Notes under the pieces: generated by a model | The model's input: only the letters and a program-made list of their open reading frames with translations | The model's database searches: none | Told to the model about the DNA's origin: nothing | In this document: one piece after another, positions 5,836-63,497 of the stretch | How the letters are laid out: each line of letters starts with the position of its first letter | Position numbering within the stretch: position 1 is the stretch's first letter | Assembly: GCA_021228405.1 (NCBI GenBank) | Contig: JAJQRF010000009.1 | Location: 1-64,000, forward strand | Origin: Pyrinomonadaceae bacterium | Lineage (GTDB): Bacteria > Acidobacteriota > Blastocatellia > Pyrinomonadales > Pyrinomonadaceae | Length of the DNA: 64,000 nucleotides | Direction of reading: 5' to 3' | Position numbers and translations under genes: made by a program

Positions 5836-6306
5836 AAGATTTCAAATTCCAAATACAAATTTCAAATTGGATATTCTAACCTTTATCATTGATTTTGCGA
5901 AACCTGCCGAATAAATTAACCCTTAATCAATAATGTATAAAACCATAAGACGCTTTCCGATACGTGGAAACTTATCTGTAATAACCTTTCAGAGGATTTT
6001 TTCATCATCAGACTGAAATAATTGAAAGGTAGACTGAAATAATTGAAAGGTAGACTGAAATTTTTGTAATACAGACTGAAATAATTGAAAGGTAGACTGA
6101 AATAATTATAACTCAGACTGAAATAATTGTGACTCAGACTGAAATAATTAAAAGGTAGACTGAAATTTTTATAATGCAGACTGAAATAATTGTTATCTAA
6201 GCGCAAATACTTTGCTTAAAGCTGATTTGAAAGGAATTGTAAATATTTCGATTTTATTAACAATTTTACGAAACGGCGGAAATGTGAGTTAATTTTCAAA
6301 GGCATT
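5836..6306. other. 471-bp intergenic region carrying a 21-bp tandem array
   Basis: Lies between the divergent ychF and lipoprotein starts. Apart from the array at 6010-6198 it is AT-rich with no gene I can support. A minus-strand reading frame through the array is an artefact of the 21-nt period. Confidence 0.7.
6010..6198. repeat. array 1: nine tandem 21-bp units
   Basis: Nine head-to-tail units of exactly 21 bp start at 6010, 6031, 6052, 6073, 6094, 6115, 6136, 6157 and 6178. Each has a conserved first half AGACTGAAAT, then AATT (seven units) or TTTT (units 3 and 8), then a variable 7-nt tail (gaaaggt three times; gtaatac, ataactc, gtgactc, aaaaggt, ataatgc and gttatct once each). The pair 'aaaggt unit then TTTT unit' occurs twice, five units apart, suggesting a higher-order duplication. 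Confidence 0.95.
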
Positions 6307-16162: not shown

Positions 16163-16277
16163 ACACATTTTGAAATGCCAACACGTTAAATCTTGACTCA
16201 AAAAATAATCGTGATATTTTATTGCTGTTCAAATGAACGCAACTAAATTTCTAATAATTTTGGAGGTCAGACTTTTT

Positions 16278-16754
16278 ATGATTAACAGAATAGCGGTAGA
16301 GGTTTCCGAAACAAGGAGAAGAGAAGTTGGGGAAAAAGGGGTAGAACTCAACAATCTGGTTAAAGATTGGTATATTCCGGTTGAAAAAGAGGAAGTCAAA
16401 TCGATGTCCAAACTCGGCGATAATCGAATTGCTTTTGCCGATAAAGTCGCTCAATATGCAGTGACAAATCCTGAATTTCTTCCGCCTTATGCTGATGTCG
16501 AGGAATATGTCAGAGATTTGAAGGCATACAAGGATTTGCGCGAAATCGTGCGACCGATCAGGCAGATCACTGATAACCTCGAAACTTCAATGAAGGTGAG
16601 CGGCAGTGAAGCCTATGAATTTGCCCGCAGTTACTACAGAGCCGTGCAATATCACGCTAAAATGGGTGTGCCCGGAGCGCAGACGATTCTTGACGATTTA
16701 CGCACGCTTTTTGAAGCTAAAAGCAGTCCCGAAACAGACGAACAGGAAAGTTAG
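16278..16754 (+). CDS. small helical hypothetical protein
   Basis: Soluble, mostly helical protein of about 158 aa. The start at 16278 is favoured by GGAGGT 10 bp upstream. The C-terminal half has the pattern LPPYADVEEYVRDLKAYKDL, then FARSYYRAVQYHAKMGVPGAQ and TILDDLRTLF. That pattern resembles a widespread uncharacterised family of helical proteins with a 'P-GA-x-I-x-D-L' ending (from memory). Function unknown. Array 2 of tandem repeats begins about 120 bp after its stop. Confidence 0.7.
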   Translation: MINRIAVEVSETRRREVGEKGVELNNLVKDWYIPVEKEEVKSMSKLGDNRIAFADKVAQYAVTNPEFLPPYADVEEYVRDLKAYKDLREIVRPIRQITDNLETSMKVSGSEAYEFARSYYRAVQYHAKMGVPGAQTILDDLRTLFEAKSSPETDEQES

Positions 16755-16875
16755 TTTTAACGAGTAATTTCGTCAAAAAATCCTCGTCATCGTTTGTCTT
16801 GAGAACAAAAATCTTCTAAGCCCGACGGCGGCACGGTATTTTTCTGCGAAAATCAAAGTCAATTATAAAAAGCCA

Positions 16876-17038
16876 AACCTCGCTCAGATGACGAAAACGT
16901 CACTTAAATGACGAAAACCTTGCACAGGTGACGAAATCGTCACTCAGGTGAGGTTGAACCTCATATAAATGACGAAAACGTCGCTCAGATGACGAAAACC
17001 TCACACAGATGACGATTTCGTCATCTGTGTGAGGTTTT
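16876..17038. repeat. array 2: seven to eight 20-bp dyad units
   Basis: Units of about 20 bp, with ATG/GTG anchor bases at 16888, 16908, 16928, 16948, 16969, 16989 and 17009. Typical unit: CAGATGACGAAAACGTCACT, containing the dyad TGACG-AAAA-CGTCA. Unit 3 is GTGACGA-AA-TCGTCAC. Unit 4 is TGAGGTT-G-AACCTCA, in which both arms changed yet still pair. Units 2, 5 and 6 have imperfect right arms. The last unit merges into a 44-bp palindrome. Confidence 0.95.
16995..17038. repeat. 44-bp near-perfect palindrome at the end of array 2
   Basis: Left arm 16995-17015 (begins AAAACCTCACACAGATGACG) and right arm 17018-17038 (TCGTCATCTG...GAGGTTTT) are perfect 21-bp reverse complements around a TT. The stem is made of array-unit sequence followed by its inverted copy. 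As RNA it would fold into a very stable hairpin ending in TTTT, so it may also act as terminator for one or both convergent genes. Confidence 0.95.
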
Positions 17039-17062
17039 CAGCAAATTAAACTCTAAAAAGTC

Positions 17063-37159: not shown

Positions 37160-37629
37160 AAGAGCGGGAAAAATAATTTGGTCAGATGCTTCCGTCGGCG
37201 GTCAGATGCTCTCGTTCGATGGTCAGATTCATATTATTTTGGTCAGATGCTTTCGTCCGTTGGTCAGACGGTTTCGATGTTTGGTCAGATGCTTCCGTGG
37301 TTGGTCAGACAGACTCTTTTATTGGTCAGATACATTCGTTTGCCGGTCAGACGTTCACGAAAACGGTAAGATGCTTCCGAAATTGGTAAGATGCTCACGA
37401 AGTTGGTAAGATGCTTCCGACGCTGGTAAGATGCTTCCGACGCTGGTAAGATGCTTCCGACGCTGGTAAGATGCTCCCGTCCGTTGGTAAGACGGTCACT
37501 TCACTCGGTAAGATGCTTTCGTCGGACGGTAAGACATTAAATCGTCAGGCAAATGCCGAATATTTGATTGGTTAATTCAAAAATCTGCGCTAGAATCTAA
37601 AAAATTTCAATTCCCGGAAAAAATATAAT
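37160..37629. other. 470-bp intergenic region occupied mostly by array 3
   Basis: Between co-directional genes. The array runs 37180-37549; the remaining about 80 bp before the M20 gene is AT-rich and probably holds its promoter. Confidence 0.7.
37180..37549. repeat. array 3: eighteen tandem 20-21 bp units
   Basis: Units start at 37180, 37200, 37221, 37241, 37262, 37283, 37303, 37324, 37345, 37365, 37385, 37405, 37425, 37445, 37465, 37486, 37507 and 37528. Typical unit: GGTCAGATGCTTCCGTCGGC. The first nine units begin GGTCAGA and the last nine GGTAAGA. Units 12-14 are identical (GGTAAGATGCTTCCGACGCT). The last 5-7 bases of each unit vary most, and lengths alternate between 20 and 21 bp. Confidence 0.95.
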
Positions 37630-61820: not shown

Positions 61821-63497
61821 TTATCTATTTGTGTTAGCCGAGTTTGTAGTAGTTGTTGCCGTTGGTGCGCCGCCTGTTCCGGTTTTGTATTCGATACGGC
61901 GGTTTTTGAAGCGTCCGTCTTCTGTATTGTTATCGCCGACGGGATTTGCGTCGCCGTAGCCGACCGATTTCAGCATTGCTTCACTTACGCCGAGAGCGAC
62001 CAGCTCTTTTTTGACCGCATCTGCACGCGATTGCGAGAGCTTTTTGTTGGCTTCGGCATTTCCTTTATTGTCGGTATAACCGCCGATCTCGACCGTTGTT
62101 CCGGCAGGTTGTTTTTTCAAAACTTCCGACGCTTTTGCCAGAATCGGTTTGGCATCAGCCGGAATGTCTGATTTGCCCGACGCAAAATTGATGATCGAAA
62201 CGTTCAATGCTTTGACAACCTCATCAACCGAATCGGCTTCGCCGAGTTCCTTTAACGCTTCTTCGTTCGCTTGCTTTGTCGCGGTTTCCGCGCCCGCAAT
62301 CGAAACGGGAAGCATCCAACCCGTAAACAGCGATTTGATCTGGTCTATTGCCGCTTGCGGAAGCCCTGTGGCGGTTTCGATTGCATTACCGAGGAAAGAG
62401 ATCGAACCCGTTTTCCAATCTTTCAGGCTCGGCAATAATTTTGCGAAATTATCCCACCAACCTGCCGCAAAAGGCTTCGCGTTTGCATCCGCTTTCAAAC
62501 CTGAAAAATCGACATTTCCTTCGCCGAACTGCGCCGTCAGAGCCGCTTTGATTTTGTCCAGGGTTGCCTGATCGGGAACTATGCCGGAAGCAATGTATTT
62601 GCCGTCTTTGGCTTCGAGTTTAAAACTGGAATCGACGGTTTTTGCCGTTGAAGCGGTATTTGCGTTCGCCGCGGCTTTGTTGGCATTTGTCGGCGGAGGC
62701 GTTGGCGGAGCGGGCGATTTGCCGCAGAACCAATAGCCCAAAACGATCAGGATACCAAGCAAAATAAGCGGCAAAAGCCATTTTAGAGCCGAATTACCGC
62801 CGTCACCGTCCCCGTCGAAAACATCACCGACCGAACCAATCGCACCTGAAACTTTATCCCCGACTGCGCCAGCCGCGCCGCTGACCGCACCGATTCCGCC
62901 GCCGATGATTTCCTTGCCTTTATCGTAAGTTGCGCCCGCCGCATCGCCGACTGCGCCGACTCCGTCGCCGATAAGCTCTTTACCTTTATCGTATGCGGCT
63001 CCGGCGGTATCGCCGACTTTATCGACCGTTCCGCCCGCAACCGAGCCGACTGCGCCCAATCCGCCCAAAACCGCGCCGGTTGCCGCGCCGCCTAATCCTG
63101 TCAAATATCCGCCGAGTTTTGAAAGCAAACTGCTTTCATCGGGAATTTCGCCGTCGGGCGTTAATTTATCGACGACCTGCGGCATCATAAAACCAAGTGC
63201 GGATGTAGCCGTTTCCTTATCGACCCCGGCGTTTTCGGCGACCGAATTGAGAGTGTCCGTGCCGAGAGCCGATTCGACTTCTTCGTTAGAAATTTCCGTA
63301 TTTTCTCCCGAACTGATCCAGGACGAAATCTTATCGCCTAAACCTGCCGTTCTGAAACGGTCAACAAAACCCGTAAATCCGCCGTTTTGCGGATCGCTGA
63401 TCAAACCGAGTAAAGCCGTAAGTAAACTTCCTGTTTTATCGCTGCTCAAACCGAATTTTTCTCCGGCTGATCCGATAATTGAATCAAACAAAGACAT
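61821..63497 (-). CDS. YidB (DUF937) - BON-like - OmpA fusion protein
   Basis: Protein of 558 aa. Residues 1-125: YidB/DUF937 helical domain with TSALGFMMPQVVDKLTPDGE. Then a Gly/Ala-rich repeat segment (about 135-230) with GAxYDKGKELIGDGVGAVGD-like units. One membrane helix follows (about 240-262; WLLPLILLGILIVLGYWFCG), then a BON-like domain (about 300-345; GKYIASGIVPDQATLDKIKA). The OmpA peptidoglycan-binding domain (about 430-540) has VEIGGYTDNKGNAEANKKLS. No signal peptide, so the YidB part faces the cytoplasm. May link the inner membrane to peptidoglycan. Confidence 0.88.
   Translation of the reverse strand: MSLFDSIIGSAGEKFGLSSDKTGSLLTALLGLISDPQNGGFTGFVDRFRTAGLGDKISSWISSGENTEISNEEVESALGTDTLNSVAENAGVDKETATSALGFMMPQVVDKLTPDGEIPDESSLLSKLGGYLTGLGGAATGAVLGGLGAVGSVAGGTVDKVGDTAGAAYDKGKELIGDGVGAVGDAAGATYDKGKEIIGGGIGAVSGAAGAVGDKVSGAIGSVGDVFDGDGDGGNSALKWLLPLILLGILIVLGYWFCGKSPAPPTPPPTNANKAAANANTASTAKTVDSSFKLEAKDGKYIASGIVPDQATLDKIKAALTAQFGEGNVDFSGLKADANAKPFAAGWWDNFAKLLPSLKDWKTGSISFLGNAIETATGLPQAAIDQIKSLFTGWMLPVSIAGAETATKQANEEALKELGEADSVDEVVKALNVSIINFASGKSDIPADAKPILAKASEVLKKQPAGTTVEIGGYTDNKGNAEANKKLSQSRADAVKKELVALGVSEAMLKSVGYGDANPVGDNNTEDGRFKNRRIEYKTGTGGAPTATTTTNSANTNR

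Follow-up and report, generated by a model that had tools for sequence, protein, structure and literature searches.

Array 2 of the window, the whole 64,000-nucleotide stretch of Pyrinomonadaceae DNA analysed here, makes up the 3' portion of a compact gene-plus-array unit, ~0.8–1 kb in length, in which a short leader is followed by the gene of a helical protein of ~158 amino acids, often by an intrinsic terminator, and then by 5–15 repeats of 20–22 bp. The sequence of the repeats is particular to each copy of the unit, and what is kept is their period (approximately two turns of B-DNA), their dyad symmetry, and their position. The gene upstream, which ends 120 bp before the repeats, is the key to array 2. 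The unit is found in at least four phyla, often in multiple copies, and the array is best explained as a helically phased tract of DNA, probably bound by the protein encoded beside it, a reading to which a probability of roughly 0.4 may be given. The features concerned are listed in Table 1.

Table 1. Features of the gene-plus-array unit, and of the other arrays of its class in the window.
Feature	Coordinates	Strand	Basis or remarks
Gene-free array, same class	6009–6193	.	21-bp period; unit CAGACTGAAATAATTGAAAGG; outside the gene-plus-array unit
Ribosome-binding site GGAGG	16262–16266	+	read from the sequence; 11 bases upstream of the start codon (ATG, 16278)
Gene, uncharacterised 158-aa protein	16278–16754	+	open reading frame and homologues; predicted all-helical, C-terminal tail disordered
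Gene–array spacer	16755–16874	.	no recognised canonical terminator in the window's copy
Array 2	16875–17039	.	seven direct 20–21-bp units and an inverted eighth
Starts of the direct units of array 2	16875, 16895, 16915, 16935, 16956, 16976, 16996
First ~81-bp higher-order copy	16876–16955	.	period 81
Second ~81-bp higher-order copy	16957–17036	.	78% identical to the first
Perfect 22-bp inverted repeat	16994–17039 (16994–17015 / 17018–17039)	.	2-nt loop; closes array 2
Gene-free array, same class	37178–37539	.	20–21-bp period; unit GGTMAGATGCTTCCG

Dyads of the type TGACG-AAAA-CGTCA were confirmed in array 2, which closes with its last direct unit and its inverted unit jointly forming a perfect inverted repeat. 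Both of the higher-order copies start with AACCTC and end with GAGGTT, and unit 4 (TGAGGTT-G-AACCTCA) is the junction at which the end of one copy meets the start of the next; its left half, TGAGGTT, matches the inverted half-unit with which the array ends. In most of the other units, the left arm TGACG is constant, while the right arm is variable (CGTCA, CCTTG, CGTCG, or CCTCA). The original prediction described an array of 20-bp dyads in which both arms of unit 4 had changed together, as compensatory substitutions. The array and the dyads are real, and the dyads are far more numerous than expected by chance, but the compensatory change is unsupported, given that the double change in unit 4 is explained, without any compensatory mutation, by its location at the junction of two copies.

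The only related array in the source genome is found on contig C4 (514636–514756; 121 bp, 88% identical to array 2), between two genes that are unrelated to those flanking array 2. In this paralogous array, the junction reads TGCGGTTGAACTTCA, in which one arm position has changed to a mismatch and another to a G·T pair, so that the arms have varied independently, contrary to the prediction. Among the 13 dyads of the two arrays, changes on both sides were recorded in just one of the five stem pairs, and in two cells, which represent the same junction unit in each of the arrays; this count was matched by 356 of 500 shuffles, and the doubly changed stem pair is unpaired in four of the 13 rows. 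A broader covariation score for the same dyads, matched by 29 of 500 shuffles, is a weak sign at most. The between-arm covariation of array 2 is −0.057 in the unit-level test; across the units of 88 arrays of this class, no covariation was detected on average (+0.004 in mean excess; p = 0.34, Wilcoxon), and only a few arrays gave positive values. Covariation was thus rejected as support for hairpins, both on the 88 arrays and on the 13-dyad test. The unit also shows that the turnover of repeats, rather than selection on pairing, can produce paired-arm changes within a single array.

The association of the array with the gene was apparent in the relatives of the source genome, where homologues were found in seven of 60 genomes (13 hits), with an array of 20/21-bp period within ~260 bp downstream of the gene in 11 of the 13 hits; of the remaining two, one is cut off by the edge of its contig 96 bp past the gene. 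A profile search of the source genome itself recovered five members, all with a downstream array of 20–22-bp period. Members were also recovered from the Bacteroidota (24 of 296 genomes, and 20 of 60 in a search of one genus), the Planctomycetota (3 of 294 genomes), and the Verrucomicrobiota (5 of 288 genomes), as well as from one gammaproteobacterial plasmid (Ca. Thiodictyon syntrophicum), which has no obvious array. The phage records and viral contigs searched contained no relatives of the family, and a query with the neighbouring HerA protein likewise returned nothing.

The linkage was evaluated by the same statistic at all loci (a signal at lags of 20, 21, or 22, z > 4), in 80 homologues with enough sequence, from the source phylum, Bacteroidota, Planctomycetota, Verrucomicrobiota, and the gammaproteobacterial plasmid. 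A 20–22-bp signal was found downstream of the gene in 57 of 80 loci (30/46 + 21/26 + 6/8), upstream in 1 of 79 (1/45 + 0/26 + 0/8), and at a distance of 0.8–1.2 kb in 1 of 78 (0/45 + 1/25 + 0/8). The value of 57/80 is conservative, since arrays of 42–44-bp units (L217, L222, L227, and L243, for example) escape the statistic, and the true downstream share is therefore higher.

The small protein is under purifying selection, with dN/dS of 0.05–0.16 in most close pairs (L226/L227, L254/L265, L244/L246, L214/L238, L219/L239, and others), and is therefore in use; one paralogous pair, L022/L023, has a value of 0.46, and some copies in the family contain stop codons or are truncated. The structure model (pLDDT 88) has five helices, one of 55 residues, and a disordered tail, which is acidic in the window's copy. 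No family was matched in Pfam, NCBIfam, or PADLOC (COG2_N, at E = 0.047, falls below the Pfam cut-off, and the one PHROG matched has E = 0.09), and a sequence search of solved structures returned no match. The fold search of the model was also without a confident match (best Foldseek E 2.1), and the best VIA-align score, Z 5.1 over 83 residues, is within the range of common helical arrangements. Two neighbouring genes considered as partners are probably chance neighbours, as HerA is widespread in the bacterial family without the unit, and Mrr was found in only two of the 99 genomes of this family.

A canonical intrinsic terminator lies between the stop codon and the array in 32 of 60 loci, compared with one in the shuffled controls, and nearly all of these loci belong to the Bacteroidota. 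In these cases, the array therefore lies outside the terminated transcript of the gene. The terminator-like hairpin of locus L208, CTCCCCTCCTTTTTTAAGGAGGGG, which is located between gene and array, recurs at several other places in its genome. The homology of close copies extends from about −660/−500 to +330/+363 around the stop codon, and then largely ends, with the copies sharing short dispersed repeats beyond these limits. Whole repeat units are gained or lost between closely related copies, as in the pair L254/L265, in which the gene and the terminator are each 95% identical, compared with 80% in the array, with 42 gap columns.

The unit is accessory, and its contexts are varied, often beside restriction or defence nucleases. 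In two genomes (L226 and L227), a unit of ~0.87 kb sits on the opposite strand between cas4 and cas1 (about 1427–2292), which are adjacent, ~21 bp apart, in a relative with no member by profile (L292); no target-site duplication was recognised at this cas4/cas1 site. The 50 downstream neighbours examined with Pfam and PADLOC include DUF559, Cas4, Vsr, AccI, Mrr, and Uma2, as well as HNH, PtuB, type I R, and methyltransferase proteins, and restriction, HNH, Vsr-like, or other nucleases lie directly downstream of the array in L209, L211, L220, L223, L245, L250, L252, L257, and L265. Matches of this kind were rarer among the 59 upstream neighbours, which include Cas1, a type I restriction subunit, WYL, and LmuA. 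As raw frequencies, these neighbours are suggestive of defence loci. The commonest neighbour families listed include no ParA, ParM, TubZ, or replication partner, with the longest open reading frame within ~1.5 kb considered on each side.

The symmetry and the spacing of the repeats are consistent features of the arrays. Perfect hairpins with 7-bp arms number 112 in 35 gene-linked loci, compared with 4–11 in shuffles, and the consensus dyads are at least 70% complementary in 53 of the 88 arrays. The array period is 20, 21, or 22 in every lineage, and, in the dispersed arrays, 202 of 216 steps from unit to unit have precisely the modal length. Changes of spacing are scarce even though the units of these arrays diverge at between a fifth and a third of their positions. 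Phased A-tracts, and hence curved DNA, were discarded as a common principle, being abundant in 37 of 80 arrays and absent from many others.

The array would appear to work as DNA. The combination of the dyad and the 21-bp translation would place inverted half-sites alternately every ~10.5 bp on one face of the helix, along which a symmetric DNA-binding protein might assemble cooperatively, the likeliest binder being the protein encoded next door, presumably with its own half-site in each copy of the unit. Duplication, deletion, and conversion, including conversion between inverted copies, would keep the array homogeneous, and would make both arms seem to change together. The 20–22-bp period and the modal spacing are what the geometry of DNA would impose, and hairpins of RNA would not, while a dimeric DNA-binding protein would suit half-sites that each vary on their own about a symmetric consensus; strong consensus dyads without arm covariation are to be expected if the half-sites are read independently. 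The location of the array downstream of the gene, including all five members of the source genome, the purifying selection on the gene, the terminator between stop codon and array, and the common homology limits of close copies, together with the occupied and empty states of the cas4/cas1 site, all favour this binding of the array as DNA. It is opposed by the protein itself, which has no recognisable DNA-binding domain and, in the window's copy, an acidic tail, and by the upstream regions of 33 genes, which, when scanned with the profile of their own array, contained no autoregulatory site (mean z 0.21, equal to the control). The presence of ~3 gene-free, unrelated arrays per 100 kb is also unexplained by one protein per sequence, and a few covarying arrays, together with weak hints of RNA (folding, the sense strand, and the excess of G·T), point in another direction.

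The selection on the dyad that was originally proposed is upheld to the extent that the symmetry recurs in most such arrays, and some process favours it, although the compensatory evidence offered for it fails. The two functions suggested for the dyad fare unequally, with a dimer binding site fitting better than a unit-by-unit RNA hairpin, because the half-sites change independently, the spacing is constant, and the array is often located beyond the terminator.

The array may, alternatively, be transcribed, by read-through or from a promoter of its own, to form hairpins or a long fold-back bound by the small protein, in the manner of the repeat RNAs of type III toxin–antitoxin modules, although this is unlikely. 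The folding potential is considerable in array 2, whose RNA would form a fold-back of ~43 bp (−78.6 kcal/mol; z = −10.3 relative to dinucleotide shuffles), and in 81 arrays, where the mean z of single-strand folding is −6.4 relative to shuffles. The order of the units folds clearly better than permuted versions in 11 arrays, and clearly worse in none; the sense strand is slightly more stable than the antisense strand (p = 0.03), and stem mismatches include 61 G·T and 38 A·C (composition ratio ~1.17), which is a weak test of strand. The terminator between gene and repeats also recalls type III toxin–antitoxin modules. Against these indications, the arms do not covary, several arrays hardly fold, the 21-bp period is unnecessary for RNA hairpins, and the array is often found downstream, past the terminator. 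The Bacteroidota promoter consensus is not enriched between the stop codon and the array, nor in the antisense direction from the far end of the array, and Rfam returned no match in the window at the gathering score.

Many arrays of this class are dispersed in the source genome. The sequences of the numerous intergenic arrays of 20–21-bp period in a 400-kb genome sample are all different, and many have a dyad, although the array at 37178 of the window folds no better than its shuffles, so that not every array of the class has dyads. In 800 kb of sampled contigs (C4 and C7; L025–L044 and L109–L128), 23 arrays of 20–22 bp were found, or ~3 per 100 kb, which gives ~160 arrays per genome by extrapolation from this sample. 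Most of the dispersed arrays adjoin ordinary host genes, with no shared family of adjacent genes, and the arrays have super-periods of 42, 63, and 84 bp, which are typical of turnover by block duplication. The sampled arrays are nearly all unrelated in sequence, with one short match of 42 bp beyond the pair formed by array 2 and its paralogue on C4. No gene remnants were found within 1.2 kb of 24 dispersed arrays, so their interpretation as scars of lost genes was rejected. Most of the relatives that lack the gene have almost no 20–22-bp arrays, and three gene-carrying Bacteroidota genomes (400 kb sampled) contained only one multi-copy gene-free array (L275, 2084–2263, 21-bp). A 21-bp array of 11.6 copies, CCCGATATCTTATACCGGGTT, is found in the relative G079 (L195, 6219–6462), with no family member on the stretch examined. 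On C4, at about 573693–573859, a 26-bp repeat of 6.5 copies, 95% identical, adjoins a 21-bp array.

It is unlikely, but consistent with part of this distribution, that gene and array form a small mobile element, with the array and its inverted end serving as substrate for the movement either of the unit or of array-only copies. Such an element would be formally similar to the RAYT/REP system, although its protein is unrelated. The common limits of units found in different contexts, the insertion between cas4 and cas1, the patchy occurrence and the broken copies, the array-only copy on C4, and the abundance of arrays in the source genome, compared with the few in its gene-free relatives, are all compatible with mobility. 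The protein, however, has no similarity to transposases, nucleases, or HUH proteins, and no confident fold match, and the occupied cas4/cas1 site has no recognised target-site duplication. With the exception of one pair, and apart from the 42-bp match, the dispersed arrays were copied neither from gene-linked arrays nor from each other; they also lack adjoining gene remnants, and are rare in the three gene-carrying Bacteroidota genomes.

The arrays may otherwise be functionless minisatellites, with dyads and paired changes generated by hairpin-templated mutation and unequal exchange, as might be suggested by the rapid gain and loss of units between close relatives, with the array diverging further than the gene, the super-periods, and the lack of covariation. 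This is improbable, and is already strained by the linkage of gene and array, given that it explains neither why the arrays follow the gene of a single protein family, at a fixed position, in four phyla, nor the narrow period, nor why the spacing so seldom changes among such divergent units. The least credible account, and a very improbable one, is the individual selection of the dyad of each unit through compensatory substitutions, in favour of which there are the excess of dyads and the few positive arrays, and against which stand the independently varying arms of the C4 array, the non-significant result of the strict stem-pair test, a covariation that averages zero over 88 arrays, and the junction that unit 4 represents.

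Two known systems are nearest to the unit in their logic, RAYT/REP and the type III toxin–antitoxin modules, although the unit lacks some defining features of each, among those examined here. The RAYT/REP (BIME) elements, including the CGTC-tagged REPs, are short palindromic repeats tied to a small gene (PMC3733652), and the present unit resembles them in its palindromic repeats, its small gene, and the dispersal of its repeats in intergenic DNA. It differs in the strict tandem register of 20–22 bp, the array-specific sequence, and the location of the array only downstream. The protein, which is all-helical in the model and has no Y1/HUH signature, is unlike the IS200/IS605-type tyrosine transposase of RAYT; in place of a constant GTAG/CGTC tag, CGTC is present in array 2, but absent from most arrays of the class; and, rather than many near-identical dispersed copies, just one other locus in the genome is similar to array 2 for longer than 30 bp.

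In the type III toxin–antitoxin system ToxIN, the repeats are found upstream of an endoribonuclease toxin, and their RNAs form pseudoknots (PMC8860590). The combination of a small-protein gene with tandem repeats is shared with the present unit, as is the terminator between gene and repeats, which is found in many loci, with the parts in the reverse order, but is unrecognised in the window's copy. The arrays described here lie downstream, in contrast, and each of their units is a dyad spanning two turns of the helix, while the protein, with its all-helical model, was not assigned by any of the libraries to the ToxN/CptN/TenpN endoribonucleases.

Plasmid iterons and centromere tracts (Rep/iterons and ParR/parC) are direct repeats in helical register beside a small-protein gene, as in the present case, although this unit is chromosomal, with many copies per genome and differing repeats, and its array follows the gene instead of lying in the promoter. 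Bacterial minisatellites (VNTRs) have a similarly rapid gain and loss of units, and super-periods, but the present unit has a fixed partner gene, side, and period across phyla. In CRISPR arrays, near-identical repeats alternate with unique spacers, whereas the units of the present arrays are head-to-tail, without spacers, and ~65–80% identical. No examined system has these parts in this order, and the unit is apparently undescribed; the open papers searched included none on such a gene-plus-array unit, although an earlier description elsewhere is possible.

A conserved gene with an obligatory-looking array, occurring in four or more phyla, with as many as five copies in a genome, and absent from the family libraries searched, represents a new object of study. 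If the nucleic-acid partner of the protein is fixed in its geometry, rather than in its sequence, the unit offers a direct test of this type of recognition, and it may also account for the genomes in which intergenic 21-bp arrays are abundant. It is possible, as a tentative view, that the unit belongs to a new class of elements, in which a small helical protein would recognise the architecture of the array and not a fixed sequence, with units settling in defence loci and, in some genomes, seeding many gene-free arrays. The cue would be either the inverted half-sites, placed at one to each turn of the helix, or the fold-back that they form, in which case the sequence of the repeats could drift freely, while the protein and the geometry would be conserved across phyla.

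A search for the exact two-unit pattern of array 2 in 84,980 genomes returned 64 matches in unrelated taxa, approximately the number expected by chance, and was set aside. The window also contains a tandem 66-bp repeat, at 62865–63018, within an open reading frame.
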